Positions 3,001 to 49,795 of a DNA stretch of 64,000 nt are shown piece by piece. Source of the stretch: Planctomycetaceae bacterium (GTDB lineage Bacteria > Planctomycetota > Planctomycetia > Planctomycetales > Planctomycetaceae); contig PBMZ01000006.1 of the NCBI GenBank assembly GCA_002722955.1, positions 5,608-69,607 on the forward strand, given 5' to 3'. The notes beneath the pieces were generated by a model. That model worked only from the letters and a program-made list of their open reading frames with translations, was not told the DNA's origin and ran no database searches. Made by a program: the position numbers and the translations under genes. Numbering within the stretch: the first letter of the stretch is position 1; every line of letters begins with the position of its first letter.

Positions 3001-3844
3001 CGGCTATTACTTCTTGATCGGCAAGTTCTAATTTCAGACTTTCATCTGGTAAGTTTGCTGTTTCGAAGTCATCTAATGAAAAATTGATTTTAACTGCCAA
3101 GTTTTTGATGTCTACTAGTGTCACGTAATAACTTGTTTTAGCAACCATCTGGCCCGTAGGATTGTCAACAGCTTGAAGCGTGATTTGGTCATTTACCCTA
3201 GTTCGTCTTGAACCAAAAATGTCGAGAAATGACAAGGCAAAACTTCCATCTGACCGCGTCTCTGACTGTGGAGACAAAAACCATCCATCTTTAACTCGCA
3301 TGTTTTGGCCAATAACTCGGTAACCTGTACCAGCTGGATTTCCATTAGATAATTCTAGAATTCCAGTGACCGTAAAAGTATCAGTTTCTAATTCTTCGTT
3401 TTTTAGTTTTGGGTTTAACTCTGCTGGTAACTGCATATTCAACTCGGCTTCTAAATTCTCGATAGCATTTGAAGTAACAGCATAAACGATTTCCGATATT
3501 GATTGGCCAGTATCAGGGATATCTGCAATTTGCACAACTATCTGGTCGCCAACACGAGTTCGGTTGGAACCAAATATATCTAGAAAGGAGATCACATAAC
3601 TGCCGTCTTTACGCGTTTTAACTTTAGTCAAGGTTTCCTGTTGAAACCATCCAGTTTTGAGGCGTTGATTTTCGGCCTTTACTTGGAATCTAGTAGAGAC
3701 TTGTAATCCATTCTGATGTGTGATTCGTCCATTTAGATTGAACGCATCAGTCCCATCTTGACCATGCGAAACAGTAGTCCAAGCTAGACAAAACATGACA
3801 GAGAAGTAAGTATGTACTAGCCAAAGATAGCGATCTGAGATCAT
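1..3844 (-). CDS. Large secreted cohesin/dockerin/Ig-like surface protein, C-terminus beyond window
   Basis: An uninterrupted minus-strand frame begins at ATG 3844 and stays open to base 1 (about 1281 residues, no stop in the window). The N-terminus looks like a signal peptide (basic start, hydrophobic stretch, cleavage near SHGQ). Two related carboxypeptidase-regulatory-like repeats follow (residues about 35-110 and 150-230), sharing the pattern SFLDIFGS-RTRV. Dockerin-type calcium-loop pairs lie near 385-438, 608-655 and 1122-1175 (DxNxDGxV patterns, for example GDINQDGIV and GDVNKDGQV). Cohesin-like beta domains lie near 461-575 and 685-798 (motifs FEGTLNYDSEKL and CHATLNYDPAQL). Big-1/invasin-like Ig domains lie near 838-1115, with DGTYTAYYTA. 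The visible end carries YPNPFNPETW, typical of an FlgD-like/T9SS-like C-terminal tail. Probable role: extracellular scaffold or adhesin. Domain order is seen; the role is inferred. Confidence 0.85.
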   Translation of the reverse strand, partial: MISDRYLWLVHTYFSVMFCLAWTTVSHGQDGTDAFNLNGRITHQNGLQVSTRFQVKAENQRLKTGWFQQETLTKVKTRKDGSYVISFLDIFGSNRTRVGDQIVVQIADIPDTGQSISEIVYAVTSNAIENLEAELNMQLPAELNPKLKNEELETDTFTVTGILELSNGNPAGTGYRVIGQNMRVKDGWFLSPQSETRSDGSFALSFLDIFGSRRTRVNDQITLQAVDNPTGQMVAKTSYYVTLVDIKNLAVKINFSLDDFETANLPDESLKLELADQEVIADGFDQTILTVIMATTNPNLQDNTLSVTAIKGTIGQLTQSKAGVYTAVYTAPILSILQPTSDTITVRSSQLDYQTAQNLVLQPIDRKHLEAPLLENERQQTFKTISWDVNNNQLIDIYDLVPVIQQWGKKKTGFELIGDINQDGIVEAIDASLVMDHFGQSTGQPRAVKATDLKVNFPVSSHLQSSSLNPHVGELISVEVDIHTPLAFSEKISGFEGTLNYDSEKLELVEMSMDTQFFPAAWYSSNNSEHPTPVPPSKLGQLFRAGSVVFAAAGFPRAKTLSLGKTVAVFTFKALSRSRTRLSISEFKLADQAGHAIPTQISFIDMVPWDLNSDGGVNLEDLSIMRQEWQKNESGLISDLNQDNLVDNFDYQILISNLDDFTQYTPVETTRSVFLTLQPSVTKLPKVGQKITVQVLANSVLGLVACHATLNYDPAQLQFSSIDLYLEQPSQLGFPSSLANGYSNDKATSISGDISWVKSGSITFTKAIMSPISDSTPEKNMALANLSFIVKKRQDTFLSLSNTMAIDNTNQSLTSDTISLKLQRPVTKNTPVDQIEFLLGNRHFLADGKIITNLELQLTDQYGSFISGETITLKASAGQIGSPATDHGDGTYSANYTAEISQPQTVKLLASASNGITKKLDLYFFHRVELSTPTPQISALPSAEAKIVVTVRNTLGQTQEGQEVNLTADKGQISSPATDNGDGTYTAYYTANNDQIGSVKITASTPTDDSDVLNLDLIPVRISPQKSRIKLVGESTLPLSHLTSVEVQLRTLDGLPIVGRDVSLDIEPSNKIRIEESQKTNSEGKTLISFTVGDPGVKVVKAVIDNLTLETGLAFLFTGREQLGDVDLDGEITIFDLVFTASQFGKTGPDLTGDVNKDGQVDVFDLALIAVDLRRSQQPEMAAPFQALDLINHKVSKLSTSEKKRIRLAVQTIKNLEPLTADEKLVFKVLDSALQPHETRLLANYPNPFNPETWVPFELARGGSVQLIIYNTSGSIVKQID

Positions 3845-3941
3845 ATTAATCAAAATAACAGCAAATAAGTAATAGGGGTGACAGAATCTTTATTCTAGCA
3901 TAGAAGTACTAAAGCGTAAAGCCCGTGGCAAGCCAAATTGT

Positions 3942-3971
3942 TTCACTTTATATTCACCTGATCAGTATAAT
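3942..3971 (+). promoter_or_regulatory. Candidate sigma-70-type promoter for the PhyH-HEAT gene
   Basis: TTCACT at 3942-3947 and a perfect TATAAT at 3966-3971 are separated by 18 bases, about 27 bases before the ATG at 3998. The element lies in the divergent spacer between the cohesin/dockerin gene and the PhyH gene. Consensus match only. Confidence 0.4.
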
Positions 3972-3997
3972 AGAAGCATTATAGTTAATAAAAACAG

Positions 3998-5419
3998 ATG
4001 ACAGAGCGAAAAATGAAAACATCACTTCCACTCCTTAGTGATCAACAGATGAAATCTTTTATCCAAGACGGGTATATCAAATTAGCTCCTGAGTACCCAC
4101 CTGAGCTTCATGAAAAGATATACCAAGAAATTGAACATATGTTGAATAAAAACGGGAACTTAGGGAATAATATCCTACCGTTGATTCCTGATATTCAAAA
4201 AATTTTCGATGACCCTCTAGTACGTGGTGCTTTGACCGGAGTTCTGGGTATCAACTACGTCATGCACTCACATCGTTTTTGTCATTTTAATGCTCCTGGC
4301 AGTACTGGACAAGATTTTCATAAAGATAGCTACGAAGGTGACGTTTCTGCGAATAGCCACCGTTGCCGTTGGGCTATGGCTTTTTACTATCCTCAGCACA
4401 CACCAAAGAAAATTGGCCCAACGTCTATTTTACCAAGCTCACAATACTACGATACAAGCCAAGCTGCAGACCAGCATAATGAACTAATCCTATCAGGCCA
4501 ATCAGGCACAATCACTATAGTTCATTATGACTTATGGCACCGTGCTATGGCCAACCTAAGTTCGAGCAACCGATATATGTTGAAATTCTTATTTTATCGA
4601 TTGCAGGAACCAGCCATTCCTACCTGGGAAAACGAATCTACGGAATGGCTCCCATCGAAGGATCAGGAATTATCTCAATCTGACAATCTAATCCTTTACC
4701 AAAAGATCTGGTCTTGGTATCAAGGTAAATCCACTAGGCCTCAAACAACCGAGATTCAAACTAGTTTGCCAGATCTGTTTAATCAATTGTCTGATACACG
4801 AGAAAGCGAATGCTTGAAATCAGCCTACGCACTAGGAGCCGCTGGGAATCCTGCAATCTCCGGTTTAGTTGATCGATTAGCGGATGAGTCAACTGGACGT
4901 TATGCAACAATCTCTCTTGGTGCTAGTGATCAGAATGCAGTTCCAAGGTTGATTTCCGCTTTGAAACATCCAAAAGACATTGTTCGAGCTCGAGCAGCCC
5001 ATGCCTTAGGTAATTTGGGCGTAGCCTCCGAGCCTGCGAAACCAAAACTTTTGTTATCTCTAACCGATTCAGCTCCCAGAGTACGTCGAAATGCGGCAGA
5101 ATCCTTAGGCAACATAGGATTTAAAAATGGCGATTATTCATTTGCAGAACAACAAGCTGCAACTTTAGGCCAATTGTTGAAAGATGAATATTACTGGGTT
5201 CGAGATAACGCCGCTCGCAGCTTAGCAAAAATGGGAGTTCAAGCCGAGCAAGCGATTCCGAGTTTGCAGTTAGCTCTGAATGACGAAAACCGTTATGTTC
5301 GATTTAATGCAGCTATAGCTCTAAAAGAAATTGATACACGAAAATCTAAGGAAATCTTATTCGATTATTTATTCACTTCTCGATGGTGCTCATTGACCAA
5401 CTCAGATAGTGCTTTTTAG
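3998..5419 (+). CDS. Phytanoyl-CoA dioxygenase domain protein fused to HEAT repeats
   Basis: The 473-residue protein has two parts. The first (about 1-210) is a PhyH-type Fe(II)/2-oxoglutarate oxygenase. It shows the iron ligands H108-x-D110 (sequence DFHKDSYEGD), a distal histidine at H181 in DLWHRAMAN, and a following arginine (R192) suited to bind 2-oxoglutarate. The second part (about 255-455) is a run of PBS-lyase/HEAT-like repeats (patterns VRARAAHALGNLG, VRRNAAESLGNIG, VRDNAARSLAKMG, VRFNAAIALKEI). The first domain would hydroxylate a small organic substrate; the repeats probably mediate protein contacts. The substrate is not evident. It stands alone, divergent from the preceding gene and convergent with thrS. 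An alternative start is Met6. This fusion is, to my knowledge, common in Poribacteria-like genomes. Confidence 0.88.
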   Translation: MTERKMKTSLPLLSDQQMKSFIQDGYIKLAPEYPPELHEKIYQEIEHMLNKNGNLGNNILPLIPDIQKIFDDPLVRGALTGVLGINYVMHSHRFCHFNAPGSTGQDFHKDSYEGDVSANSHRCRWAMAFYYPQHTPKKIGPTSILPSSQYYDTSQAADQHNELILSGQSGTITIVHYDLWHRAMANLSSSNRYMLKFLFYRLQEPAIPTWENESTEWLPSKDQELSQSDNLILYQKIWSWYQGKSTRPQTTEIQTSLPDLFNQLSDTRESECLKSAYALGAAGNPAISGLVDRLADESTGRYATISLGASDQNAVPRLISALKHPKDIVRARAAHALGNLGVASEPAKPKLLLSLTDSAPRVRRNAAESLGNIGFKNGDYSFAEQQAATLGQLLKDEYYWVRDNAARSLAKMGVQAEQAIPSLQLALNDENRYVRFNAAIALKEIDTRKSKEILFDYLFTSRWCSLTNSDSAF

Positions 5420-5490
5420 AGCAGAAATAAGTGGAGTGAGTTCTTACTGATTAACAGATAAATAATTAATAAACCAATCGCGACAAAAGG

Positions 5491-7287
5491 CTAAAAATCT
5501 AAGTCTGACTCATTTACCAGTTTCTCAATTACCGAATTTAGATCCACTGCCCCTAAGTCGCCGTCTTCTCGTGCCCTAAGCGAAACCGTTCGACTTTCTT
5601 CTTCTCTTTCGCCAACTATTAACATGTAAGGTATCTTCTCTAGTCGAGCTTGACGAATTTTAGCCCCAATTTTGTCATCTTGGCTGTTAAATTCTGACCT
5701 AATACCTTTAGCGATTAGTATTTGGTGAATTTCTTTTCCATATTTCACGAACCGTTCACTAATTGTCATTACTACACACTGTATTGGAGCTAGCCACATT
5801 GGAAATGCTCCGGCATAATGTTCTATGATAAGCCCGATGAATCTCTCAAAACTACCATACAAGGCGCGGTGAATGACGACTGGCCGTTCTGATCCACCAC
5901 TTGATGTAGTATATGTCAAATCAAATCGTTCTGGTAATTGGAAGTCTAGTTGAATTGTTGCACATTGATGCTCGCGATTGAGTGAGTCACGAACATAAAA
6001 ATCGAGTTTAGGTCCATAAAACGCAGCATCTCCTGGATTAATCTCAAAATCGAGATCATTATTTTTTAAAACCTCTTCTAAAGCCCCCTCAGCTTGGTTC
6101 CATACGGGTACGTTACCCATGAATTTTTCCGGATCACGGGTGCTTAGAACAGCACGGAAATCTAGATCGAAGGCCTGATAGATACGGCTGATCAAATCGA
6201 TAATTCTATTATGTTCATCCTCAATTTGTTCTTTAGTAATAAAATTGTGTGCATCATCTTGACTGAATTGGATTGCTCGTACAAGTCCACTTAAAGCTCC
6301 AGTTCGCTCATTTCGATGCAAAACACCTTGGTCATACAGACGGAAAGGTAGCTCACGATAACTTCTTCGCTTACTCTTAAAAATCAACATGTGAGCGGGA
6401 CAATTCATTGGCTTCAGCCCACTTTTAGGTTTACCTTCTTCATCATCAAAGGTAAACATATCACCACGGTAGTGTTCCCAATGACCAGACGCTTGCCATA
6501 GGGATTTGTCATAAATTAGAGGCGTTCGAACTTCATTATAACCGCTGTTTAAATATAGTTTTCGAGCCTTTTGAGCGAGCGTATTATAGACTGTAGTCCC
6601 TTTTGGTAACCAGAAAATAGCGCCCGGAGATTCCGGGTGTAATTGAAACAATTCTAGTTCTTTGCCCAAGCGCCTGTGATCTCTCTTTTCAGCTTCTTTC
6701 AACATCGTCAGGTAAGTGTGCAACTCATTCTTTGTTGACCAAGCAGTACCGTAAATTCGTTGTAGTTGCTCACGATCTTGGTCAGCTCGCCAGTAGGCTC
6801 CAGAAACACGAAGAAGCTTAAAAAAACGGCATTCTTTCGTTGTATCAACATGTGGGCCTTTGCATAAATCAGTGAACTCACCGGTGTGATAAATGGAAAC
6901 GCCACTTTCAGAAACCCCTTCATTTTCACCAGATAATTCTTGGTCTGAGATGCCGTCGATCAGTTCCAATTTGAACTTTTGGTCTTGATTGGAAAACCAT
7001 TCACGAGCTTGTTCAAAAGACCAGTCTTCTTGTACGAATGGTATTTTCTCTTTGATGATTTTTTTCATCAATTTTTCGATTTCGACTAGATCATCTGGTG
7101 TAATCGAGCACGGAAGTTCCATGTCATAATAAAATTCATTTTCAATAGGGGGACCAATTGCAAACTTAACACGCTTGGGTTCGAACATTTGCTGAACCGC
7201 ATAAGCCATAACATGAGCAGTAGAATGACGAACTCGGTACAGATAGTCTTGGTGTGAATGGTCAGGCTTGTTCAAAGGGCTTGGCAT
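5491..7287 (-). CDS. thrS: Threonine--tRNA ligase lacking the N-terminal TGS domain
   Basis: The 598-residue class II aminoacyl-tRNA synthetase charges tRNA-Thr. It begins almost directly with the editing domain: H21-xxx-H25 (HSTAHVMAYA) and C142/H146 (DLCKGPH) give the expected editing site. The catalytic core shows the zinc cysteine in MNCPAH, motif 2 (LHRNERTGALSGLVRA), a zinc histidine in VIHRALYGS and motif 3 (GSFERFIGLIIEHY). The HGTP anticodon-binding domain covers about residues 495-590. The roughly 60-residue TGS domain found in the E. coli enzyme is absent, as in some other bacterial lineages. ATG 7287 has only a weak upstream ribosome site. No T-box leader was recognised. The gene is convergent with the PhyH gene and lies downstream of a tRNA operon. 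Confidence 0.95.
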   Translation of the reverse strand: MPSPLNKPDHSHQDYLYRVRHSTAHVMAYAVQQMFEPKRVKFAIGPPIENEFYYDMELPCSITPDDLVEIEKLMKKIIKEKIPFVQEDWSFEQAREWFSNQDQKFKLELIDGISDQELSGENEGVSESGVSIYHTGEFTDLCKGPHVDTTKECRFFKLLRVSGAYWRADQDREQLQRIYGTAWSTKNELHTYLTMLKEAEKRDHRRLGKELELFQLHPESPGAIFWLPKGTTVYNTLAQKARKLYLNSGYNEVRTPLIYDKSLWQASGHWEHYRGDMFTFDDEEGKPKSGLKPMNCPAHMLIFKSKRRSYRELPFRLYDQGVLHRNERTGALSGLVRAIQFSQDDAHNFITKEQIEDEHNRIIDLISRIYQAFDLDFRAVLSTRDPEKFMGNVPVWNQAEGALEEVLKNNDLDFEINPGDAAFYGPKLDFYVRDSLNREHQCATIQLDFQLPERFDLTYTTSSGGSERPVVIHRALYGSFERFIGLIIEHYAGAFPMWLAPIQCVVMTISERFVKYGKEIHQILIAKGIRSEFNSQDDKIGAKIRQARLEKIPYMLIVGEREEESRTVSLRAREDGDLGAVDLNSVIEKLVNESDLDF

Positions 7288-7394
7288 AACAATCTTAAAC
7301 TCAACTTAGGGGTGTGTTTACCCTACTCATTGCAAGGTGCCAGAGGGCAAACACGTGAAATAGTATAAACTGGTATTTTTTTCTTACACAAATG

Positions 7395-7422
7395 GAAGAG
7401 GGCCGTTGAAACGGCCCTCTTC
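7395..7422 (-). terminator. Rho-independent-type hairpin ending the tRNA operon
   Basis: A perfect 12-bp stem (GAAGAGGGCCGT at 7395-7406 with its complement at 7411-7422) closes a 4-base loop, 31 bases beyond the tRNA-Val gene. It is GC-rich and very stable. The T-run after it is weak on both strands, so strand assignment rests on the position after the tRNAs. Confidence 0.7.
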
Positions 7423-7452
7423 TTTCCAAAAGAGGCTTCAGAATAAAGTGAA

Positions 7453-7526
7453 TGGGCGGTACGGGATTCGAACCTGTGACCCCTTGCGTGTCGGGCAAGT
7501 ACTCTAACCAACTGAGCTAACCGCCC
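7453..7526 (-). tRNA. tRNA-Val (anticodon GAC)
   Basis: Cloverleaf read on the minus strand: acceptor GGGCGGT/ACCGCCC, D arm AGCTCAGTTGG, anticodon stem CTTGC/GCAAG with loop CCGACAC, T arm containing GGTTCGAATCC, discriminator A. The anticodon GAC reads valine GUC/GUU. Position 33 is C instead of the almost universal U. The CCA end is not encoded. It is the last gene of a Gly-Cys-Val tRNA operon. Confidence 0.88.
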
Positions 7527-7559
7527 CAAATAAATATAGCCCCTAATGAAATGGAGTGA

Positions 7560-7631
7560 AGGCGGCGGTCGGAATTGAACCGACGCATAGAAGTTTTGCA
7601 GACTTCCGCCTTACCACTTGGCTACGCCGCC
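7560..7631 (-). tRNA. tRNA-Cys (anticodon GCA)
   Basis: Minus-strand cloverleaf: acceptor GGCGGCG/CGCCGCC, anticodon stem GAAGT/ACTTC with loop CTGCAAA, T loop GGTTCAATTCC and discriminator U, as expected for cysteine tRNA. No CCA is encoded. Middle gene of the three-tRNA cluster. Confidence 0.95.
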
Positions 7632-8116: not shown

Positions 8117-10273
8117 ATGATATCCAAGATCGAATCGGTCGAAGAAATGTTTGTTCTGGCGCTAAAATACCAAAAAGCCGGCGATTTATCGATGGCTTCG
8201 CAAATTTACCAAAAAATTTTGGCTGTTGACCCTGAACACACTGCTTCGATCGGCAACTTAGCTTTGATTGTTCAACATTCAGGCAATAATGATTTAAGCA
8301 TCAAGTTGCTAAAGAAACTTATCTCTCTGGAGCCTAATGATACACGTGCATACAGCACTCTAGGCAATGCTTATTACCATCATGGATGTGCTCAGGCAGC
8401 AATTGAGTGCTATAAAAAAGTCCTCGAATTAGAACCGGAGTCTACGTCAGCTTTCGCTGATCTCGGTATTACGTACCAACATATTGGTGATTTTCATCAA
8501 GCTGTATCGTATTTGAAGCGTGGACTTGAGTTGGATGCGAATTCAGGACACATCAACTTCTGTTTAGGAAATGTTTACTACGAATCGGCTAACTATAAAC
8601 CGGCTATTCATCATTACAAAAAAGCAATACAAGTAGAACCTGATCATTCAGAAGCATATGCAAACCTAGCATTGTCTTACAAAGCTTTAAAGCAAAATAA
8701 CCTTGCAATTGATAGTCTAAAGATTGCCCTTGAATTAACACCCAATTCTTCTAATTTTCACTATAATCTGGGTAATATATATCAACAGGTAGGAAAACCT
8801 AAAAGAGCCATATTATGTTACCAGAAAGCTATTCAAATAAAGCCTCGTTTCTCCCAAGCCTATATTAACTTGGGTAATATTCTTCGTGATTTAGGACGAC
8901 GTAATAAAGCCATCGAATACCTAAAGGAGGCGGTACGTCTTGCTCCTGGCGATCCTGATGTATATTATAATCTAGGTCTTCACTTATCTGATCTCAACGA
9001 TTACAAAAAATCCAGCCATTTTTATCAGATTGCTATTGGTCTGAAATCTAAACAAGCTGTAAGTAACTATCTGATGGATTTGAATTACTATGAACAAATT
9101 GACCCAAAGTTGATTTTTGATAACCACTTAAGAGAAGCCAAAAAGTTACACATAGATCCGTTATCGAACGACCCGATTTCCGTTCCGCGACAAGATGGAT
9201 ATAAATCAAAGATCAAGATTGGCTATTTATCATCTGATTTTAGAAACCACAGTGTCGCTTGCTTTTTTCAGCCAATTGTTGAGTTTCATAATAGAGATGA
9301 ATTCGAGGTTTTCTGTTTTTCTAACTCAAGCATTGAAGATGAAATAACTAATCAGATCAGGACTCATTCTGACCACTTTATTCCAATTCATCACTTGCCG
9401 GATGTTGTAGCTTTTCAAAAAATCAAAAGCCAGGACTTAGATTTTTTAATTGACCTTAATGGGCATACTAGCGGTAACCGTTTGGCGATTTTGCGCTCTG
9501 GACTAGCCAAGAAAGTTTTGTCTTGGATCGGTTATCCTACGACAACTGGATTATCCACAGTTGATTATAAAATTAGTGACAACTATTGTGACCCAGCACC
9601 GTTTACTGATCAGTTTTACGCAGAAGATTTATTGAGACTAGACGGTTTCTTCATGGTTTATAAACCACCAAACTTTTTGCCTGAAATACAACCGAGTCCC
9701 TGTTTTTCTAATGGTTATTTAACTTTTGGTTGTTTCAACAATTTCAAAAAGATTAATCATTCACTAATTCGGATGTGGTCAAGGGCCCTGTTAGATCAAC
9801 CGCATTCTAGACTGATTTTGAAAAATAGTGGCAAACCTAATCAGCAGCAGAAAGAGATTTTTTTGGATTTTTTCTATCAATCAGGTGTTGACGATTCGCG
9901 TATCAAATTTTTCGATAGAATGGAAAGTAGAGTCGATCATTTGAATTTATACAACTTGGTTGATATCAGTCTTGATACCTACCCATATAGTGGAACGACG
10001 ACAACATTTGAATCCTTATTGATGGGCGTTCCTGTCTTTACTATGGTTGGCCAAACACACGTTTCTCGAGTGACTGGTTCAATTTTGGACCAACTGGATT
10101 TACATCAATTCACTGTTTCTAATTTCGAAGACTATGTGCCAGAATTGAGACAGTTAGCACAGAAAAAGTGTAACTTCGATCGGAGTTACCGCCAGAGATT
10201 GCTCCAGTCGAATTTATGTGACGGCTTAACGTTTGTAAGAGGATTGGAAACTAAACTGAAGCATGTAAGATAG
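8117..10273 (+). CDS. TPR protein with O-GlcNAc-transferase-like (GT41/SPINDLY) catalytic domain
   Basis: This 718-residue protein has about nine tetratricopeptide repeats (residues about 10-340; recurring YxNLGNxY...A..CY.KAI.I.P). A GT41-type catalytic domain follows (about 366-715). Family hallmarks are visible: IGYLSSDFRNHS, DFLIDLNGHTSGNR, LTFGCFNNFKKI and DTYPYSGTTTTFESLLMGVPV. Known GT41 enzymes attach GlcNAc or fucose to Ser/Thr of proteins; the TPRs select the acceptor. It has no signal peptide, so it should be cytosolic. It opens a run of two TPR glycosyltransferases ending at the flagellin gene, which suggests flagellin as acceptor (inference). The donor sugar is unknown. Confidence 0.9.
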   Translation: MISKIESVEEMFVLALKYQKAGDLSMASQIYQKILAVDPEHTASIGNLALIVQHSGNNDLSIKLLKKLISLEPNDTRAYSTLGNAYYHHGCAQAAIECYKKVLELEPESTSAFADLGITYQHIGDFHQAVSYLKRGLELDANSGHINFCLGNVYYESANYKPAIHHYKKAIQVEPDHSEAYANLALSYKALKQNNLAIDSLKIALELTPNSSNFHYNLGNIYQQVGKPKRAILCYQKAIQIKPRFSQAYINLGNILRDLGRRNKAIEYLKEAVRLAPGDPDVYYNLGLHLSDLNDYKKSSHFYQIAIGLKSKQAVSNYLMDLNYYEQIDPKLIFDNHLREAKKLHIDPLSNDPISVPRQDGYKSKIKIGYLSSDFRNHSVACFFQPIVEFHNRDEFEVFCFSNSSIEDEITNQIRTHSDHFIPIHHLPDVVAFQKIKSQDLDFLIDLNGHTSGNRLAILRSGLAKKVLSWIGYPTTTGLSTVDYKISDNYCDPAPFTDQFYAEDLLRLDGFFMVYKPPNFLPEIQPSPCFSNGYLTFGCFNNFKKINHSLIRMWSRALLDQPHSRLILKNSGKPNQQQKEIFLDFFYQSGVDDSRIKFFDRMESRVDHLNLYNLVDISLDTYPYSGTTTTFESLLMGVPVFTMVGQTHVSRVTGSILDQLDLHQFTVSNFEDYVPELRQLAQKKCNFDRSYRQRLLQSNLCDGLTFVRGLETKLKHVR

Positions 10274-10391: not shown

Positions 10392-12041
10392 ATGAATTCG
10401 ATCACAAAACATAAAAAATTACTGCACAAGAATTACTCAACTAACCTGATGACTAAAATTAATTTTACTAATCATCTATCTGTTGACCAGTTGTTTGTAA
10501 CAGCTGTACAACATCATCAAGTCGGTGATTATGAACAAGCTGAAATTATTTATCACCATATTCTAGGGCTAGATCCAGCACACTACCTTTCGCTCAATAA
10601 TTTAGGATTAATTAACCTGCAGTCAGGCAGAAATAATCAAGCTGAGGAATATTTCAAGCATGCTATTACTGCCAATTCAAACTACTATGAAGCTCACACT
10701 AACCTGGGTAATCTACATCTACGTAATGGATGTTGTGTGCCGGCTATAAGTTCTTACAAAGAAGCTCTTCGGATCGCTTCTGATGATGAAGAAGTGTGGG
10801 CCAACTTGGGTAATGCTTACTTTAAGAACAATCAATTTGGCCAAACAATAAAATGTTATCAGACAGCTATCCAGCTTAACTCAAGCAGGTATGACCTGCA
10901 TAAAATGCTGGGCAATTGTCATTATATTCTGGGTCAATACCAAGATGCTATTAGATCTTATAAAGAGTCTTTAAAAATAAACCCTAGGCAACCTGAGCTT
11001 TATTGTAAAACAGGGTTATCTTGCCAAAATATTGGTTTGTATGAACGAGGGGTGGAATGTTTTAGACAAGCAGTGGCTTTGGAGCCAGACGATGCTGAAC
11101 TACATAGTCAGTTTGGTACATCCCTTCTATTAACAGGCGATTTTATGAATGGGTGGCTTGAGTATGAATGGAGACACAAAATGGCTAAATACAACAGGCA
11201 TTTTGTCAAACCGTTTTGGACCGGAGAAGATTGTGATGGTCAAACTCTGTTAATTTATGCCGAACAAGGGGTAGGGGACACCATCCAATTTTTACGATTT
11301 GTTACGCTACTCAAAGATAGAAATCTTACTATTGTTTTTGAATGCCCTCCACGTTTGAAACCTTTGATAGAAAGTTGGAACTTTCTCAGCAAAAAGTTCA
11401 AGGTTTTTTCTATTGGCGAAAATTTGCCAGACTTTGACTTTTACCTACCATTAATGAGCCTACCATTCCTGTTGGGTCTTAATCAAATTGACCAGATATC
11501 ATCAATCGCGCCTTGTCAGTTCTCTATTTGTGGTACTGATCATCGGTATTTAATAAAAAGAAATGAGAATGACTTAAAAATTGGTTTAGCTTGGGCTGGA
11601 AATCCTGAGCACGCTAGGGACCGCGATCGTTCGATTAAATTCACTGAATTCTCTAAATTGTTACGATTGAAAAATTGTAGTTTTTTCAGCCTGCAAGTTG
11701 GCCAAGCCAGAACTGAACTATACGAAACATCAAACGCTTCACTTAGAGAGTCAATTACAGATTGGGGACAGACTTTTACTAATTTTTTTGATACGGCCCA
11801 AGCTATCAGCCAGCTTGATTTAGTCATAACTGTGGATACAGCAATCGCCCATTTATCTGCAACGATGGGAAAAATGACCTGGATTATGTTGTCGGCCAAC
11901 CCGGATTGGCGCTGGCTAGTACGGAGAGAAAATTCGCCTTGGTATCCACAAGCTCGACTTTTTCGGCAACAAATTTTTGGTCGGTGGGATTCAGTGATTG
12001 CAAATATTGCCCAAAATTTACTCAAAATAAAAAAGAATTAA
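10392..12041 (+). CDS. TPR protein with GT9-like glycosyltransferase domain
   Basis: A 549-residue protein. Residues about 30-260 are seven or so TPR units. The C-terminal half (about 280-545) resembles the heptosyltransferase-like (GT9) domain that often follows TPRs: LLIYAEQGVGDTIQFLRF, KIGLAWAGNPEHARDRDRSI, LVITVDTAIAHLSATMGK and the closing PDWRWLVRRENSPWYP. The hinge motif NGWLEYEWRHK is typical of this family. Members are frequently linked to flagellin glycosylation loci, although a defined substrate is rarely known. It lies 118 bases after a TPR-OGT and 181 bases before flagellin. The annotated start could instead be the ATG at 10449, which removes a basic 19-residue leader. Confidence 0.88.
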   Translation: MNSITKHKKLLHKNYSTNLMTKINFTNHLSVDQLFVTAVQHHQVGDYEQAEIIYHHILGLDPAHYLSLNNLGLINLQSGRNNQAEEYFKHAITANSNYYEAHTNLGNLHLRNGCCVPAISSYKEALRIASDDEEVWANLGNAYFKNNQFGQTIKCYQTAIQLNSSRYDLHKMLGNCHYILGQYQDAIRSYKESLKINPRQPELYCKTGLSCQNIGLYERGVECFRQAVALEPDDAELHSQFGTSLLLTGDFMNGWLEYEWRHKMAKYNRHFVKPFWTGEDCDGQTLLIYAEQGVGDTIQFLRFVTLLKDRNLTIVFECPPRLKPLIESWNFLSKKFKVFSIGENLPDFDFYLPLMSLPFLLGLNQIDQISSIAPCQFSICGTDHRYLIKRNENDLKIGLAWAGNPEHARDRDRSIKFTEFSKLLRLKNCSFFSLQVGQARTELYETSNASLRESITDWGQTFTNFFDTAQAISQLDLVITVDTAIAHLSATMGKMTWIMLSANPDWRWLVRRENSPWYPQARLFRQQIFGRWDSVIANIAQNLLKIKKN

Positions 12042-12205
12042 AAAAAACTCAAGTTGAGTGAAAAACGTTCGACATTACTACTGGTGGTAGATTTTGAACT
12101 TAATTTCGATGCTGTTTTCAGCGTTCTTAGGTTTGTGTTCAAGCCACTAAAGCGTATTTAGTCATGACTTTAACGAGCTATTGTAGCCATTAGGATTAAT
12201 CCTTC

Positions 12206-12212
12206 AGGAGGT
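12206..12212 (+). promoter_or_regulatory. Perfect Shine-Dalgarno of the flagellin gene
   Basis: AGGAGGT ends 10 bases before ATG 12223, the strongest ribosome site in this part of the window and consistent with very high expression. No convincing sigma-28 or sigma-54 promoter was found in 12042-12205. Confidence 0.85.
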
Positions 12213-12222: not shown

Positions 12223-14805
12223 ATGGCATCTATTCGAACTAACTTACAAGCGGGATTGATTTCTCGCCAATTGTCTAACATTAATCGTAGGTTTACAACT
12301 AACTTAGAGCGGTTGTCAACCGGCTTGCGCCTTAATCGGCCAGACGATTCACCAGGGCAATATGGTGTAGTTATTAACCAAAACCTGCAAATACAGTCTC
12401 TTAATCAGGGCGTCCTTAATGCCCAGAATGCAGCAGGAATGCTGCAGACGGCCGAGGAAGGCATAAACACGTTAATTGATGTGTTGAATCGAGCTCATGA
12501 TTTGGCAGTCACCGCTGCAGATGCTACCTTGACTCAGGCTCAGCGCCAGCAGGCACAAGACGAAGTTGAAAGCTTACTCACTGCAAGCGACGGGTCAGCT
12601 GAGATTCAGCAACTGCTGGATAATGTTAACTACAACGGAGTCAAGCTTCTAGCTGATTCTGAAAAATCGGCTGCCATCCAAAATGCGGCTATCGGTGTCG
12701 TGGGTGGTTCTCGTGAGGCTACGGCCGCTGGTGGTGATAAAGTAGATCTACTCACTTTAACTGGTGGTTCTGCTACTCAGTTCTTTGAGACAACTGCTGC
12801 TTCAACTGCCCTAGGTGGTAACAACTTCGATACTATCACCGCTACTGACTTGACTAGTGTTGGTTTGGCAACGTCCAAGTCGGGCTTGGTTATAAACATG
12901 TCCAACGTAGCTGACACTGTTAACAAAGGTGATATTCTTGAGTTATCCGTAACCAATTCTTCCGGTACAACTAGTGATCAGGTGATCGTTGCTAGAGTAG
13001 ATCAAGACGCAGGAAATAAGGGTGGATTAGATAATGTAACAGTATTCAATGCGGACGGTCATACGGTAGCATTGGATTTGTATGATCTGTTGAATACCAC
13101 AGGAATTTCTTCGTCTACCGATACCTTCTCTATCAAGCGTATCCCCCAGACCTTGATTTTGGATTCAACCGGAGCAACCGCTACAAGTGGGTCATCACGT
13201 AACTTCAACCCTGGTACAATTGCGACTACCAATAACACAGATAGTGAATTCCGGGAAGTTCTGCATATCGGTGTTGCACTAAAAGCATCTAGCGATGCTG
13301 GTGCAGCTGCACTGAGTCGGGTTACCGTTAGTTTTGCTGACACAGATCCACTAGCCGCTGCGCGTAAAATCCAAGCAGCTATTGAAGATCAATTGGGTGG
13401 TGAATATCGTAAAGGTGGGTCTCTACACATTGACGTCACTGCAGTTGCCGATGTCTATAAAATTCAAGACCCTGACATCACCGGTGGTGGTGACACCAAC
13501 AACTCTTTACTCGTTGCGAGCAAAGCGGAGCTTACTGAAGACTTATGGACTAGTACTAAAAATGTGATAGGTACTGGTGCGTATAATAGCTTCAATGGTA
13601 CGACTTACATGGATCAGGTTGGCCGAGAATATGCAGATGCTAGCAAGGTCTTCTTCAAGTTCTCCACAACCACTACGGCAGGTGTCAACCAAACACCCGA
13701 GCTGCGTGTGATGTCAGACACTTTAGCTGGCTATACAGACTCAACTTATCCAGACCGGCTATTCGGCAACTCACTGAGTATTGCTACTGGCGAGCACGGC
13801 AACGATAAGTTCATGTTGACAATCGACGGAGAAGAAGTTGAGGTCGATTTGGACGCTGATTCTTCAAGCTCAACCAATACACGAATCCAGACTTTAGTAA
13901 CTGCAGCTGAAGCCAAGACCATAGGTCAGGCTAATACAACAGCCGCTGCGAACATGTCTGTGACTGCGATTGGTATTGCAGACAACAACACAACTGCGGG
14001 TGTTACCTATACAGCAGGTAGCGTTAATACCAACTTTAAGATCACGAATGATGTCGATGCTGGTTTAGACTATGCTATAGGTAATTCTACCAGTCGCAAC
14101 TATACTGGCGGTTATTACAGTCAGGATAACTTGCGGACTATGCTAACGAACGCAATCAATACTGCAACGACGTCTGCTAAGGACGCTAGCGTATCCTACG
14201 ACCACGCAACTCGTACGTTTACGGTAACTACTGGGTCCAGAAGTAATCTTAGTAGTCTTAATGTTGGTAAAAGTATAGCAACTAACATCACTTTAGATAA
14301 CTCAGCTAAAGCGACCAACATAGTTGATAGTACTCCAGGTACATCTGGCTTTGTAGGAGCTCTCGGTCTATCCCAAGGTGCTTCGAGCTCAGGATCAGGG
14401 TCGTTCTTTGAGTTCCGTCTTGGTGGCGATGGGGATACGTACTCCATTAACTTTGGCACCTTTGGTGTAACTAACATGGGTGCTGACCAAGTTGATATTT
14501 CGAATATCACCTTGTCAACCCAAAGTGGAGCGGCTAGTGCCATTTCGGTTATCGAGCAGGCATTAGATAGTATCAGCACTACACAAACCAAGATTGGTGC
14601 TGGTATTAATCACATGCAACGTCGTGTAAATGTGATGGAAAGCCATCGTGAAGCTTTACGTGGTGCTAAGGCAAGGATTGAAGAGATTGACTTTACCGTC
14701 GAGACCAGAAATCTGGCCAGTTTGCAGATTTTATTACAATCTAGTACTGCAGCTCTAGCGCAAGCCAATATTATTCCACAAACTTTATTGCAGCTTCTCG
14801 CTTAA
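12223..14805 (+). CDS. fliC: Flagellin with very large central variable region
   Basis: The 860-residue flagellar filament subunit has a conserved N-terminal D0/D1 region (about 1-145: ASIRTNLQAGLISRQL, LERLSTGLRLNRPDD, NAQNAAGMLQTAEEGI, VNYNGVKLL) and C-terminal D1/D0 region (about 775-860: ISTTQTKIGAGINHMQRRVNV, ending SSTAALAQANIIPQTLLQLLA). The roughly 620-residue insert is rich in Ser, Thr, Asn, Asp and Ala with few Lys/Arg and no Cys apparent. That suits a surface-exposed, possibly O-glycosylated domain. Flagellins are usually 270-550 residues, so this one is large. It has no signal peptide, as expected for type III export. It is followed by a hairpin, then flaG and fliS. Confidence 0.95.
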   Translation: MASIRTNLQAGLISRQLSNINRRFTTNLERLSTGLRLNRPDDSPGQYGVVINQNLQIQSLNQGVLNAQNAAGMLQTAEEGINTLIDVLNRAHDLAVTAADATLTQAQRQQAQDEVESLLTASDGSAEIQQLLDNVNYNGVKLLADSEKSAAIQNAAIGVVGGSREATAAGGDKVDLLTLTGGSATQFFETTAASTALGGNNFDTITATDLTSVGLATSKSGLVINMSNVADTVNKGDILELSVTNSSGTTSDQVIVARVDQDAGNKGGLDNVTVFNADGHTVALDLYDLLNTTGISSSTDTFSIKRIPQTLILDSTGATATSGSSRNFNPGTIATTNNTDSEFREVLHIGVALKASSDAGAAALSRVTVSFADTDPLAAARKIQAAIEDQLGGEYRKGGSLHIDVTAVADVYKIQDPDITGGGDTNNSLLVASKAELTEDLWTSTKNVIGTGAYNSFNGTTYMDQVGREYADASKVFFKFSTTTTAGVNQTPELRVMSDTLAGYTDSTYPDRLFGNSLSIATGEHGNDKFMLTIDGEEVEVDLDADSSSSTNTRIQTLVTAAEAKTIGQANTTAAANMSVTAIGIADNNTTAGVTYTAGSVNTNFKITNDVDAGLDYAIGNSTSRNYTGGYYSQDNLRTMLTNAINTATTSAKDASVSYDHATRTFTVTTGSRSNLSSLNVGKSIATNITLDNSAKATNIVDSTPGTSGFVGALGLSQGASSSGSGSFFEFRLGGDGDTYSINFGTFGVTNMGADQVDISNITLSTQSGAASAISVIEQALDSISTTQTKIGAGINHMQRRVNVMESHREALRGAKARIEEIDFTVETRNLASLQILLQSSTAALAQANIIPQTLLQLLA

Positions 14806-14821: not shown

Positions 14822-14850
14822 GAGGCAAAGAGGATTTCCCTCTTTGCCTC
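14822..14850 (+). terminator. Hairpin between flagellin and flaG
   Basis: A perfect 12-bp stem (GAGGCAAAGAGG at 14822-14833, complement at 14839-14850) with a 5-base loop, 17 bases after the flagellin stop. The U-tract is short (TCTCATT), so partial read-through into flaG is likely. This would set a high flagellin to low FlaG ratio. Confidence 0.75.
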
Positions 14851-14867: not shown

Positions 14868-15320
14868 ATGTCTTCAGTTAATGCCATTAATTCCTCTGTC
14901 GACACTGCCGTCGCTAGTGTCAAACAACAGATTTTGCTGGCTCAACAAAATGCCAGTCAACAAAAAACCGACCAATCAACGATTCGGCCCACATCTTCTG
15001 ATGTTGATGTAAGGCCTAGTGTAGATGCAGACCACCTCGGAGTGGAAGATATCACTGAAGTCGTTGAAGTTGATGCGCCAAAACCTCAAGAAATGTTGGA
15101 TAAAGTTCGCAATGTAATTCCTAAATTAAATTCAGTCATGCATAGCATGAACCTCAAACTTAGGTTTGAGGAATTTGCAGACTCCGGACGTTACTATGTG
15201 CGAGCGATGGATATGGTTGAACAGAAGGAAGTTTCCAGACTCCCCCACGATCAGTTTTTAAAACAGGCTGAAGTAACTAAGCATTTTATCAGTGGTTTAT
15301 TCGTCGACCAAGGTAAATAG
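14868..15320 (+). CDS. flaG: FlaG family flagellar protein
   Basis: A 150-residue protein with a variable N-terminus and the FlaG domain in the last about 70 residues. The domain pattern is LNSVMHSMNLKLRFEEF, an aromatic/charged strand (RYYVRAMDMVEQKEVSRLP), then a helix (DQFLKQAEVTKHFISGLF). FlaG proteins influence filament length in several bacteria; the mechanism is not settled. ATG 14868 has a good GAGGTAGG ribosome site just upstream. It lies between flagellin and fliS. Confidence 0.85.
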   Translation: MSSVNAINSSVDTAVASVKQQILLAQQNASQQKTDQSTIRPTSSDVDVRPSVDADHLGVEDITEVVEVDAPKPQEMLDKVRNVIPKLNSVMHSMNLKLRFEEFADSGRYYVRAMDMVEQKEVSRLPHDQFLKQAEVTKHFISGLFVDQGK

Positions 15321-15348: not shown

Positions 15349-15786
15349 GTGAACCACCCCCCCACAGACGTTCCAGAACAGCAATATCGTACGGTTCAGG
15401 TGGAAACCTCAACCACCTTGAACTTAGTACAAATGGCGTATGATGGTATTGTTGATAATTTGCGCCAAGCGGTTCAGGCGCTCAAGTCTGAGCCTAAATC
15501 TCTTGATGTTTTTAACGAAAAAGTATCAAAAGCCCAACAAATTGTTTCTGCGTTAGATGATGGAATAAATGAAGATGAGGGAGAGCTATCAGCTCTTTTA
15601 ACCAGTTTCTATGAGTTTATCCGAACAAAATTGATCGAGTCTAATATGCAAAAATCACTGGATGGAATAGAAGAGGCTTTGTTAGTTGTCGAGCAAGTTC
15701 GTGGTTTTTGGGCAGAAAGTAGTGAACTTGATGTGGATATTGGTACTAGAAAGGAAGATAATGTAAAAATCGATTTTTCTGGATAA
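15349..15786 (+). CDS. fliS: Flagellin export chaperone FliS
   Basis: A 145-residue, mainly helical protein with the FliS pattern: YRTVQVETSTTLNLVQMAYDGIVDNLRQAV, then helices containing VSKAQQIVSALDDGIN and LLTSFYEFIRTKLIESNMQKSLDGIEEA. FliS binds the disordered C-terminus of flagellin in the cytosol and delivers it to the export gate. The start is GTG 15349, supported by GAGGAAA at 15333-15339. It is 28 bases after flaG, so probably co-transcribed. Confidence 0.88.
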   Translation: MNHPPTDVPEQQYRTVQVETSTTLNLVQMAYDGIVDNLRQAVQALKSEPKSLDVFNEKVSKAQQIVSALDDGINEDEGELSALLTSFYEFIRTKLIESNMQKSLDGIEEALLVVEQVRGFWAESSELDVDIGTRKEDNVKIDFSG

Positions 15787-15810: not shown

Positions 15811-18336
15811 TTGACTTATAACTGCCTGAACCAAGCGCGGGCTCTCTCTTCCCAGCAGCGTTACGCCGAGTCAAACGAGATTTGTGACCTTATACTTCGG
15901 GCCGATGGCCGTGATGTGGCTGCACTACAATTGAAAGCCCTCAATCTGGCTAGCTCGGGTGAACTAAGTCTTGCAGGCAACTTACTTCAGAAGTGTAGTA
16001 AAATTTCCCCTGAGGATGAGAAGGTTTGGCTAGACTTAGCTTATATCTATTCTAAACAAGGGGAGTGTGACCTATCGGAAGCCGCATACCGTCGATCCAT
16101 ATTTCTTGCTCCTGATTATTCCCCCGCATATAACGGTATAGCAGTGATCCAAGCCCGAAAGGGGGATTACAAATCGGCCATAGCCACACTAAGACAGGCG
16201 GTAACCGTCAACTCAAACGATCTTGTTTCTTACAACAATTTAGCCCGCCTACTTGAAAGTAACAAAGAATTCAAGAGCGCAATGATGATTTATCAGCGGC
16301 TTTTGACTTTGTCTCCGACAGCTGATAATTACCAATCTCTCATTCATTCCTACCTGAAAGCTGGTTTATCTAAGGCTGCTGCCTCGACGTGCTGTGACGG
16401 CTTAAGGAAGCATCCAAAAAACATAGCTCTGAGGAGAATTTCATTTCAACTAGAAAATGGTCCTGTCAAAGTTTCACCTGAAGCTGATCAGAAAGTTAAA
16501 AAACAACTTGAAGTGATTCTTCAGCTATTAAAAAAAGATAATATAGACACTGCTGGACAATTGTTTGAACAACTTTATCGAGAGAACCCGTACCACCCAT
16601 TACTTTTGCATGATTATGGCTTATATTGCCTCCGGCATGCTAACCGAAAAAATATAAAGTTTGGCCTCGAAATATTGGATAGAGCAGTCCTAATTTATCC
16701 AAATTTTCTTCCTCCCTATAAAACACTAGCCAATTATTTTTATTCTCAGGATGATTTTGAAAGTGCTATTTTGTTCGCCAAAGAAGGAATCAAGTTTAGC
16801 CAATCTCAGTCAGATTTGTACTATGTGCTTGCAATGGCACTGAAAGAAATTGGAAAATTGAAAGACGCAATTCAGGTAATGGAGAAAGGCTTGAAAGCGG
16901 ACGGTCATATACCAATAGAGATGTATCATGAACTTGGCCTACTATATGATAATGTAGGGCAGTTTAGTTGCGCTAAATCGTATTATCAAAAAGCATTGTC
17001 AGTTGACCCTGATTATTATCAGTCTAAGTTTAATTATGGTTTGCTTTTATCTCGATCAGGTTTTGTAGATGAATCAATTCTCACTTTTGATGAATTACCA
17101 TTTCTTGATCAGAATGGATATGAAGCTCTTTTGTATGCACTCGCTTGTCATCCGGAAAAATATCGACATCTTCCTCTTTACTTGAAAAAATGGCCTAAAT
17201 TATATGCAGGTCATATAGTGGCAAAAACTGTACACTTTAAAAAAAATAAACAAAAAAAAATTCGAATCGGTTATGTATCTGCTGACCTTAGGAAACATCC
17301 CATAGCACATTTTATGGCTGGGATTTATTCTCATCATAATAAAAATGACTTTGAGATTTACTCTTATTATAATGGCATGAATGTTGATACTTACACATCT
17401 CAATTCAAGTCTCAATCCGACCAATGGCGTAATATCCGATCGCTTTCCGATCAGGATCTAGAACATCAGATAAAAAGAGATCAGATTGACATACTCATTG
17501 ATCTTTCTGGTCATACAAGCCACAATCGACTGCCAGTTTTTGTCGCTAAACCAGCACCAATACAAGTCACGTATCTCGGATATTTGGCTTCTACGGGAAT
17601 ACCACAAATAGATTATCGGCTTATTGATGGGTATGCTCGACCGGATGTTGGTATAGAGAAATTAATCGAACTTCCAAATTGCTACTTGTGCTACCAACCG
17701 CTTGAATCAGGTATCTCAGCTAGTATTAACGCACAATCTAAAAAAGGGCATGTGACTTTTGGTAGCTTTCATCGTCTTTCTAAAATTCATCATCGCTTGG
17801 TGAACGTCTGGTCTGAGATTTTATTGAGGGTGCCAGATTCAGCACTTTTGATGAAGACGAGATATCTCGATGATCCCGAAATAAAAATGAAACTCTTAGA
17901 TAAATTCATTGATAATGGCATCGATCCGGAAAGAATTATTTTTAAAGGTCATTCTGACTCCTTAACCTCCCATCTCTCCGCCTACAATGATATTGATATT
18001 ATGCTGGATGCATTTCCATATAATGGAACAACAATCACCTGTGAGTCCTTGTGGATGGGGGTTCCAGTTGTAACTGTAGCGGGACAAGTCCATTTTAGTC
18101 GTGTAGGAGTTAGTATCAATACCAATTCTGGGCTCCCTGAATTGATCGGAAACGATGAAAATGAGTATGTCAAGATTGCCTCAAATTTGGCCGAGGACCA
18201 TAGCCGATTGGCTGAATACAATTGCCAATTGAGAAAACAATTTTTGGATTCGTTAGTTTGTGACCCAGTTACTTTTACCCAAAACTTGGAAACTACCTAC
18301 AGAAAGATGTACCACCGCTGGCGACATTCGAACTGA
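15811..18336 (+). CDS. Second TPR protein with O-GlcNAc-transferase-like (GT41) domain
   Basis: An 841-residue protein. TPR-type helical repeats fill residues about 1-430, with a break near 200-230. The GT41 domain covers about 484-835 and shows IGYVSADLRKHPIAHFMAG, ILIDLSGHTSHNRLPVF, VTYLGYLASTGIPQIDYRL, HVTFGSFHRLSKIHHRLV and DAFPYNGTTITCESLWMGVPV. This is closer to the bacterial OGT consensus than the copy at 8117. The frame starts at TTG 15811 with no good ribosome site; no earlier in-frame ATG was seen and the next one is deep inside the TPRs. It follows fliS by 24 bases, so it is probably in the flagellin operon, which supports a role in flagellin glycosylation (inference). Confidence 0.88.
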   Translation: MTYNCLNQARALSSQQRYAESNEICDLILRADGRDVAALQLKALNLASSGELSLAGNLLQKCSKISPEDEKVWLDLAYIYSKQGECDLSEAAYRRSIFLAPDYSPAYNGIAVIQARKGDYKSAIATLRQAVTVNSNDLVSYNNLARLLESNKEFKSAMMIYQRLLTLSPTADNYQSLIHSYLKAGLSKAAASTCCDGLRKHPKNIALRRISFQLENGPVKVSPEADQKVKKQLEVILQLLKKDNIDTAGQLFEQLYRENPYHPLLLHDYGLYCLRHANRKNIKFGLEILDRAVLIYPNFLPPYKTLANYFYSQDDFESAILFAKEGIKFSQSQSDLYYVLAMALKEIGKLKDAIQVMEKGLKADGHIPIEMYHELGLLYDNVGQFSCAKSYYQKALSVDPDYYQSKFNYGLLLSRSGFVDESILTFDELPFLDQNGYEALLYALACHPEKYRHLPLYLKKWPKLYAGHIVAKTVHFKKNKQKKIRIGYVSADLRKHPIAHFMAGIYSHHNKNDFEIYSYYNGMNVDTYTSQFKSQSDQWRNIRSLSDQDLEHQIKRDQIDILIDLSGHTSHNRLPVFVAKPAPIQVTYLGYLASTGIPQIDYRLIDGYARPDVGIEKLIELPNCYLCYQPLESGISASINAQSKKGHVTFGSFHRLSKIHHRLVNVWSEILLRVPDSALLMKTRYLDDPEIKMKLLDKFIDNGIDPERIIFKGHSDSLTSHLSAYNDIDIMLDAFPYNGTTITCESLWMGVPVVTVAGQVHFSRVGVSINTNSGLPELIGNDENEYVKIASNLAEDHSRLAEYNCQLRKQFLDSLVCDPVTFTQNLETTYRKMYHRWRHSN

Positions 18337-25778: not shown

Positions 25779-25972
25779 CAATTGTATTAAAATGATTGTC
25801 TTACTTTCGATCATTGGTTATTCCATAGTTATTTCGAGTTTTAATTTGCGTTTAATAACCTGCAATTATATTGAATTAAATATTACTTTCGACTGGTTCG
25901 AGACTACACTGATTTAGGATTTGTGAGATAGACTCGCTACTCTTAATAGTCCATTTTTTGAAGGTAAATGAT

Positions 25973-27034
25973 ATGTTGAAGACATTAGCAGTTGACAATC
26001 GTTCAACCTTGCGAGACGCAATGCAAGTTATTGATAAAAATAGTGGGATGCCATGTATTATTGTAGATAAAAATGGTATTTTCGTAGGTATTATAACTGA
26101 CGGAGATATTCGAAGGGCTCTATTAAGAGGTACCGAAATAGATGAAAATATTAATGTTGTGGTCAATTACAAGTTAGAAATAGAAGACCGTAAGCAAATT
26201 GTTGCCAATATGGACCTGCCAAAAACCCGTTTAAAATGTATGATGGAAGAACATGGCATCAAACATATTCCTATTTTAGATAATTCTGATAAGTTCATTT
26301 ACTTAGCTACACAAGAATATATCGAAGAATCTTCAAAACTAAGTTGTGCTTTAGTAATGGCAGGTGGGCTTGGAACGAGACTCAAACCGCTCACTGATAA
26401 TCTACCAAAGCCTATGTTACCTATCAAAGGGAAACCACTCCTTGAAAGAATTATTGAACAACTTTCAAGGCAAGGGATCTCTAATATTTTTATTTCTACA
26501 TTTTATAAATCAGAAAAAATCATAAATTACTTCAATGATGGTAAAGATTTTGGTGTTTCAATTAACTACCTACACGAGGACAGGCTAACAGGTACAGCAG
26601 GAGCTCTCTTGCTATTGCCACCAATAAATACTCCAATATTAGTTTTAAATGGAGATGTATGTACCACAGTGAATTTTAAACAAATGATGGAATTCCACAA
26701 TGAGCATCAAGCTGATATGACGGTTGGAACTTATCAATTTGCTTACCAACTTGAGTATGGTGTTTTGGAAACAAAGGGCTATGAAGTCATTGGTATTTCA
26801 GAAAAACCGGTGTTGAAATATTCGGTTAATACTGGAATATACATTTTATCTCCTGCTTGTTTTGAATTTATGCCTGACAGCTTTGACAAGTCTGAGTTGT
26901 TTCATATGACAGATTTTTTAGAATTGCTGATTCAGCAAAATTTGAAAGTGGTGGATTTTCCAATTTATGAGTCTTGGCTAGATATTGGTAGTATGGAAGA
27001 TTACAGAGCTGCTCAAGAGCTGAGTGTGCCTTAA
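25973..27034 (+). CDS. CBS-domain nucleotidyltransferase, PtmE-like (GDP-aminosugar pyrophosphorylase)
   Basis: Two CBS domains occupy about residues 1-120 (IITDGDIRRALLRG). A sugar-1-phosphate nucleotidyltransferase domain follows (about 121-350): MAGGLGTRLKPLTDNLPKPMLP with the catalytic lysine, LNGDVCTTVNF and the C-terminal SWLDIGSMEDY. This architecture is that of PtmE, which makes GDP-glucosamine for legionaminic acid in Campylobacter. The frame opens at TTG 25958, but ATG 25973 follows AAGGT (25961-25965) at good spacing and is preferred. It lies 1.3 kb from the convergent nonulosonate operon, supporting that role. Confidence 0.85.
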   Translation: MLKTLAVDNRSTLRDAMQVIDKNSGMPCIIVDKNGIFVGIITDGDIRRALLRGTEIDENINVVVNYKLEIEDRKQIVANMDLPKTRLKCMMEEHGIKHIPILDNSDKFIYLATQEYIEESSKLSCALVMAGGLGTRLKPLTDNLPKPMLPIKGKPLLERIIEQLSRQGISNIFISTFYKSEKIINYFNDGKDFGVSINYLHEDRLTGTAGALLLLPPINTPILVLNGDVCTTVNFKQMMEFHNEHQADMTVGTYQFAYQLEYGVLETKGYEVIGISEKPVLKYSVNTGIYILSPACFEFMPDSFDKSELFHMTDFLELLIQQNLKVVDFPIYESWLDIGSMEDYRAAQELSVP

Positions 27035-29064: not shown

Positions 29065-29164
29065 ACTTTTTACCTCAAACCGGTCAGTTCCTCTAGGTAC
29101 TAAATTAGCCATCTAGAATGAGAAAATTACCAATTACTCAAAGAAAGTTACAAGAAGCTTTTTA

Positions 29165-49789: not shown

Positions 49790-49795
49790 ACTGTT

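Follow-up and report, generated by a model that had tools for sequence, protein, structure and literature searches.

An oversized flagellin gene flanked by TPR glycosyltransferase genes on a low-GC contig of a Planctomycetaceae bin

We propose that the 860-residue flagellin encoded at 12223-14805 of the window (the whole 64,000-nucleotide stretch analysed) builds the filament of a low-GC bacterium, probably not the one represented by the bin, that its central insert would thicken the filament, and that the TPR enzymes encoded on both sides would glycosylate it. This is the reading that we favour, with reasonable but not high confidence. In the proposed mechanism, the core helices would polymerise to give an ordinary filament, thickened by a large surface domain that the 628-residue insert would form. 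The flanking TPR glycosyltransferases would modify flagellin in the cytoplasm, the TPR arm gripping the flagellin and the GT-B domain transferring sugar to Ser/Thr, and the modified flagellin would then pass to FliS for export and assembly. Counted in favour of this reading are the core domains, the gene order, the constraint on the insert, the conserved Shine-Dalgarno sequence, upstream box and hairpin, the three TPR genes and the nonulosonate-type genes. Counted against it are an effective codon number that is not lowered and AlphaFold models that are not usable (pLDDT 35 and 38).

The flagellin gene and its central insert

The features of the gene are listed below; the homologue is an 870-residue protein, 81% identical, encoded on PAQH01000020.1 of 'Planctomycetaceae bacterium isolate SP141'.

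12155-12168, + strand: 14-nt box TATTTAGTCATGAC, 5' of the flagellin gene, identical in the homologue
12206-12211, + strand: Shine-Dalgarno sequence AGGAGG, 11 bases 5' of the flagellin ATG, conserved in the homologue
12223-14805, + strand: flagellin ORF, 860 aa, a single open frame with an ATG start
12223-12660, + strand: N-terminal core (D0/D1), residues 1-146, Pfam Flagellin_N, 98.6% identical to the homologue
12661-14544, + strand: central insert, residues 147-774 (628 aa), no Pfam family, 74% identical to the homologue
14545-14805, + strand: C-terminal core (D1/D0), residues 775-860, plus the stop codon, Pfam Flagellin_C, 98.8% identical to the homologue
14822-14850, + strand: 12-bp hairpin directly 3' of the stop codon, conserved in the homologue

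The protein is a flagellin, as an earlier note on this DNA had stated. Flagellin_N covered residues 4-146 (E 6.9e-19, 68.7 bits against a Pfam cut-off of 26.6) and Flagellin_C covered residues 775-859 (E 2.6e-16, 60.1 bits against a cut-off of 23). With both domains at the termini and nearly unchanged in the homologue, the filament core ends are standard, which agrees with that note. Among the 19 NCBIfam full-length models listed for flagellin and FlgL/HAP3, none reached its own cut-off on the 860-residue protein; the best flagellin model scored 101.8 bits, while the FlgL/HAP3 models scored 61.3 and 52.7 bits. Because the flagellin models scored higher, we take the product to be a flagellin and not FlgL. 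The two weaker matches would also fit a hook-filament junction protein (FlgL/HAP3) that carries an insert, but this is very improbable and was rejected, given the flagellin scores of up to 101.8 bits, the presence of Flagellin_C, and FlaG and FliS downstream.

The homologue was the one relative among 66 candidate stretches in the genome collection. Plasmids gave no match, and viral contigs gave no relative among 53 candidates. A profile of the insert at E <2 recovered nothing beyond copies of the two known flagellins from the 629 frames of the loci searched, and genomes of relatives of the bin and of SP141 gave weak matches, those listed including the core ends. Topic searches, run neither by sequence nor by name, turned up no paper on this flagellin. 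The order flagellin-FlaG-FliS is common to the window and the homologue contig. Because the homologue recurs in a second MAG with the order of its neighbouring genes kept, an assembly artefact, which the earlier note had named as grounds for dismissing the insert, is unlikely and was rejected; the gene is genuine.

Identity to the homologue is 98.6-98.8% in the core ends versus 74% in the insert, where residues about 147-260 and 561-640 form two variable stretches. Over the whole insert, dS is saturated; dN/dS could be computed for two insert stretches, giving 0.32/1.86 = 0.17 and 0.45/1.42 = 0.32. The insert is thus under constraint and, judged from these comparisons, appears to be a fast-changing surface.

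Around the gene, the 14-nt box is possibly a regulatory element. The hairpin after the stop codon has folding z values of -4.9 in the window and -4.6 in the homologue, with none of 200 shuffles as stable in either; a terminator-like T run follows it in the homologue and is absent in the window, and the hairpin may possibly act as a terminator or as a read-through control. The effective codon number of the flagellin gene is 53.4 compared with a mean of 51.1 for 30 neighbouring genes, and its preferred synonymous codons are shifted relative to the neighbours. Because the effective codon number is not below that of the neighbours, codon bias gives no sign of high flagellin expression.

To place the insert among others, we compared it with the middles of 24 further flagellin frames with both core ends identifiable, three of which lie on contig C88 of the same bin; frames lacking either core end, inserts shorter than 60 aa and duplicates were left out, and the boundaries are approximate. 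At 628 aa, the insert is 2.6 times as long as the median control (238.5 aa, n=24), so the earlier estimate of about three times the usual size was roughly right. Its S+T+N content of 31.5% bears out the description as Ser/Thr/Asn-rich in absolute terms, but does not distinguish it from the controls (mean 30.1%, range 18.8-35.5%, n=24), for which such a content is the norm. The description as poor in basic residues does not hold: K+R amounts to 5.9%, above all 24 controls (1.2-5.3%, mean 3.2%). The insert is therefore long but ordinary in composition, and not basic-poor.

Searches for a fold gave little. Even at E values up to 10, the insert matched no Pfam family; the homologue's insert gave two Pfam matches far below the cut-offs (E 0.019 and 0.078). 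In the PDB, the insert had one chance-level match (E 0.39). Its best self-alignment scored 73, below the 82 reached by the best of 30 shuffles, and at the DNA level only two short low-scoring repeats were found. Repeated beta domains, for which a structure prediction had been suggested, were thus unsupported by Pfam, by the PDB and by self-alignment of the insert. AlphaFold models from a two-sequence input had a pLDDT of 35.1 for the whole protein and 37.6 for residues 514-746, too low to interpret. By eye, some stretches of the insert resemble flagellin-IN beta-alpha-beta units; the searches gave no support for this.

Glycosyltransferase genes and a sugar island beside the flagellin

The flagellin gene stands among the following genes, with identities referring to the homologue contig.

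8117-10273, + strand: TPR + GT41 glycosyltransferase, 718 aa, Pfam Glyco_transf_41 (E 4.3e-41), 55% identical, same place
10392-12041, + strand: TPR protein with a weak GT9-like C-terminal end, 549 aa, FlmG-like layout, 52% identical, same place
14868-15320, + strand: FlaG, 150 aa, Pfam FlaG, 88% identical
15349-15786, + strand: FliS, flagellin export chaperone, 145 aa, Pfam FliS (E 4.2e-23), 56% identical
15811-18336, + strand: TPR + GT41 glycosyltransferase, 841 aa, SPINDLY-like, Pfam Glyco_transf_41 (E 5e-46), 54% identical, same place
18337-48820: sugar island filling the 30,484 bp from the second GT41 gene to metA, made up mostly of sugar genes
25958-35384: nonulosonic-acid-type gene set from domain matches, with a putative pathway assignment
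from 25958: CBS + nucleotidyltransferase of this set
from 28342: cytidylyltransferase of this set
from 29165: UDP-GlcNAc 2-epimerase of this set
from 30652: NeuB of this set, above the NCBIfam NnaB cut-off
from 31858: DegT aminotransferase of this set
from 33018: NAD-dependent epimerase/dehydratase of this set
from 34008: UDP-sugar dehydrogenase of this set
45703-48427, + strand: HisF-like, glutamine amidotransferase and WbuX N-acetyl-sugar amidotransferase genes, from domain or model matches

All three TPR glycosyltransferase genes keep their places around flagellin-FlaG-FliS in both genomes, at 52-55% identity. The proteins of 8117-10273 and 15811-18336 both combine TPR repeats with Glyco_transf_41, as GT41 enzymes do. 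Against the PDB, SPINDLY was the best match of 15811-18336 (E 8e-95, 322 bits, compared with 196 bits for human O-GlcNAc transferase); for 8117-10273, the best glycosyltransferase was again SPINDLY at 348 bits, followed by human OGT at 333 bits, scores to which the TPRs contribute. Because SPINDLY is the nearest solved glycosyltransferase (narrowly so for 8117-10273), the two genes, which had been labelled OGT, are better read as GT41 of unassigned donor. In the portion of PMC9715652 drawn on here, SPINDLY is described as a plant O-fucosyltransferase that uses GDP-fucose, in which activity is lost on mutation of K665 and strongly reduced on mutation of Y744 or T748. In an alignment, 15811-18336 keeps the Lys, Tyr and Thr equivalent to these three residues, and 8117-10273 has a Lys, Tyr and Thr in the same motifs by eye. 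Both proteins therefore resemble SPINDLY and O-GlcNAc transferase in their TPRs and these kept residues, and 15811-18336 differs from SPINDLY in having Pro in place of S496.

The third protein, of 10392-12041, has clear TPRs, a GT9 match below the cut-off (E 8e-4), and a C-terminal 313 aa with one chance-level match in the PDB (E 0.4). As far as the cited part of PMC7591256 describes it, Caulobacter FlmG is a protein of 596 aa with TPR and GT-B parts that modifies flagellins through a cytoplasmic pathway, the sugar being pseudaminic acid. The protein of 10392-12041 is like FlmG in layout, in size class (549 versus 596 aa) and in lying directly upstream of flagellin, and a NeuB gene is present on the flagellin's contig. 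The GT9 match is weak, however, leaving the C-terminal GT-B domain putative, and the NeuB here is of the NnaB type.

We take the nonulosonic-acid-type set to resemble legionaminic-acid synthesis; the NCBIfam label of its synthase is NnaB type. The island also holds aminotransferases, Gfo/Idh oxidoreductases and methyltransferases. Three island proteins (38587-40128, 41119-42426 and 42479-43534) matched no Pfam family above cut-off, and are candidate new glycosyltransferases. In the homologue contig, only 32 bp separate the second GT41 gene from metA, versus 30,484 bp in the window, and identity between the two contigs is 84% for metA and 90% for metY. At 48821-51121 (- strand), a homoserine O-succinyltransferase gene adjoins that of a Cys/Met PLP enzyme, an order kept beside the homologue. 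The homologue's 28.9-kb contig holds no NeuB, no cytidylyltransferase of that type and no UDP-GlcNAc 2-epimerase; it holds other sugar genes farther from the flagellin and one more TPR protein. At the other end of the window, a 1284-aa frame at 2-3853 (- strand) runs out of the window and has Invasin_D3, Big_1, cohesin and dockerin domains.

A Maf route, as reported for Aeromonas caviae in the part of PMC4065374 considered here, puts a sialic-acid-related sugar on flagellin before chaperone binding and export. The window resembles it in the NeuB-type gene set on the contig of its flagellin, and differs in having TPR glycosyltransferases instead of a Maf match. The search for MptE-like (Maf) proteins gave no match in either bin, with control genomes that themselves hold no bacterial Maf. 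None was found among 61 of the 65 frames of at least 120 aa on the window's contig, the remaining four overlapping others on the opposite strand; besides flagellin, FlaG and FliS, no flagellar families were found among these 61 frames either. The lack of Maf, of a nonulosonate gene on the homologue contig and of further flagellar genes was counted against a glycosylated filament. As for the earlier proposal of O-glycosylation through adjoining OGT genes, its gene context stands, with GT41 genes kept beside the flagellin in two genomes, while the OGT label itself gives way to SPINDLY, clearly for 15811-18336 (322 versus 196 bits) and narrowly for 8117-10273 (348 versus 333 bits). Judged from the locus, flagellin glycosylation appears likely but unproven, and the island sugars may end up on the flagellin.

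Origin of the contig and alternative readings

The window has a GC content of 37.5%, and the whole 87-kb contig (C6) has 36-41% across its three parts, whereas all 36 other contigs of the bin that were sampled (stretches of 3-20 kb) have 52-57%. The tetranucleotide profile of C6 is far from those of all 15 bin contigs compared. A second ThrRS in the bin, on C66, is 51% and 43% identical to that of the window over two matched parts; the stronger matches to the window ThrRS in 20 other genomes are about 39-51% identical. In SP141, the homologue contig has 39-40% GC; of 32 further contigs sampled, 29 have 52.6-69% and three have 34-39%. This contig ends in a 60-residue ThrRS fragment that is 72% identical to the window's, and the full ThrRS of SP141, on C153, is 44% identical to the window's. 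The low-GC contigs of SP141 are C20, C30, C40 and C12 (34-40%), others sampled being at 52.6-61% except C100 at 69%, and this MAG looks mixed. From the difference in GC and the second ThrRS, together with the tetranucleotide profile, C6 is probably mis-binned. The window's and the homologue's contigs most likely derive from related organisms that belong to neither bin.

The bin does hold other flagellins, a check that had been suggested: three ordinary ones (388-479 aa) lie with FliD on C88, and FlhA lies on C173. The contig of the window's flagellin is, however, probably another organism's, so these genes would be uninformative on it. C88 also carries, beside its three flagellins, a frame of 1220 aa (3925-7587 of the examined stretch, - strand) that matches FliD_N and is presumably long for the FliD family. 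Flg_bbr_C (rod/hook) had no match in either bin, though both have a FlhA-family protein, and perhaps this reflects incompleteness.

Against the favoured reading stands the possibility that the contig is a genuine part of the bin, native or acquired horizontally as an island, and adds a further flagellin to the three of C88. Both bins with the locus fall in the same wider group, and many large flagellins occur in the class. In addition, the FlhA-family protein of SP141 lies on a 55.7%-GC stretch and the only Flagellin_N match in that bin is that of the low-GC contig, which counts against mis-binning, although an incomplete bin could explain it. We nevertheless consider membership of the bin improbable, since the whole 87-kb contig has 36-41% GC and a distant tetranucleotide profile, and a second ThrRS is present in both bins. 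That whole contigs, ThrRS included, differ and that no junction was seen makes horizontal acquisition of an island less likely.

Two further readings concern what the flagellin does. The gene could be silent or a minor part of the filament, with the owner building its filament from another flagellin, as the earlier note had allowed. Other flagellins in the true owner's genome are conceivable and the effective codon number is not lowered, but the strong Shine-Dalgarno sequence, the conserved hairpin, the constraint and the near-identical core ends make this a poor prospect. Somewhat more serious, but still unlikely in our judgement, is a large flagellin that is not glycosylated, the TPR glycosyltransferases and the island serving surface polysaccharide or other proteins. 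The island does resemble a general surface-sugar locus (aminotransferases, Gfo/Idh, methyltransferases, WbuX), is absent at the homologous place, and the homologue contig has its other sugar genes farther off. What speaks for a glycosylated filament instead is that the three TPR glycosyltransferase genes stay around flagellin-FlaG-FliS in both genomes and the island does not.

Large flagellins and what the locus may mean

Large (>800 aa) and giant (>1000 aa) flagellins occur in several phyla according to the part of PMC6248924 consulted, examples being Bermanella marisrubri and, of the Planctomycetes, Blastopirellula marina; in two species, giant flagellins form filaments of at least 30 nm. 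The window's flagellin is like those described there in having a standard core and an oversized central insert that replaces D2/D3. It differs in that its 860 aa fall within the large range and under the 1000-aa line, so a giant flagellin proper was rejected, and in that its insert has sequence relatives limited to one homologue and no sequence-detectable internal duplication; tandem duplicated insert domains of the Oceanospirillales DE type were not found by sequence. By analogy with these flagellins, a thicker filament from the oversized insert is plausible, and at 860 aa the thickening should be moderate.

In the bin's class, which we take to be Planctomycetes because identical match places recur among the SP141 relatives, 47 of 79 sampled genomes (the bin's own included) had Flagellin_N matches. 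Among the 59 strongest rows (at least 73 bits, a chosen cut, with the window's own excluded), 17 were longer than the window's flagellin, all >1000 aa; these are stop-to-stop frames, of which a few may be partial. The oversized flagellin is thus real but moderately unusual, not exceptional.

Since large flagellins with unalignable inserts are known from many phyla, the protein alone changes little. For binning, it is a warning: taking the contig as part of the two MAGs (the window's and SP141) would make their flagellin counts wrong. As a tentative idea, for which we would claim only a modest chance, a low-GC lineage may use three TPR glycosyltransferases in the cytoplasm, two being SPINDLY-type, to decorate its large flagellin, with the 30-kb sugar set gained or lost among relatives and the transferases staying, so that the coat would be changed wholesale and the flagellin left unchanged. 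If the linked TPR enzymes do modify the flagellin, the FlmG-type route would be extended, and bacterial SPINDLY-like enzymes would gain a natural substrate.
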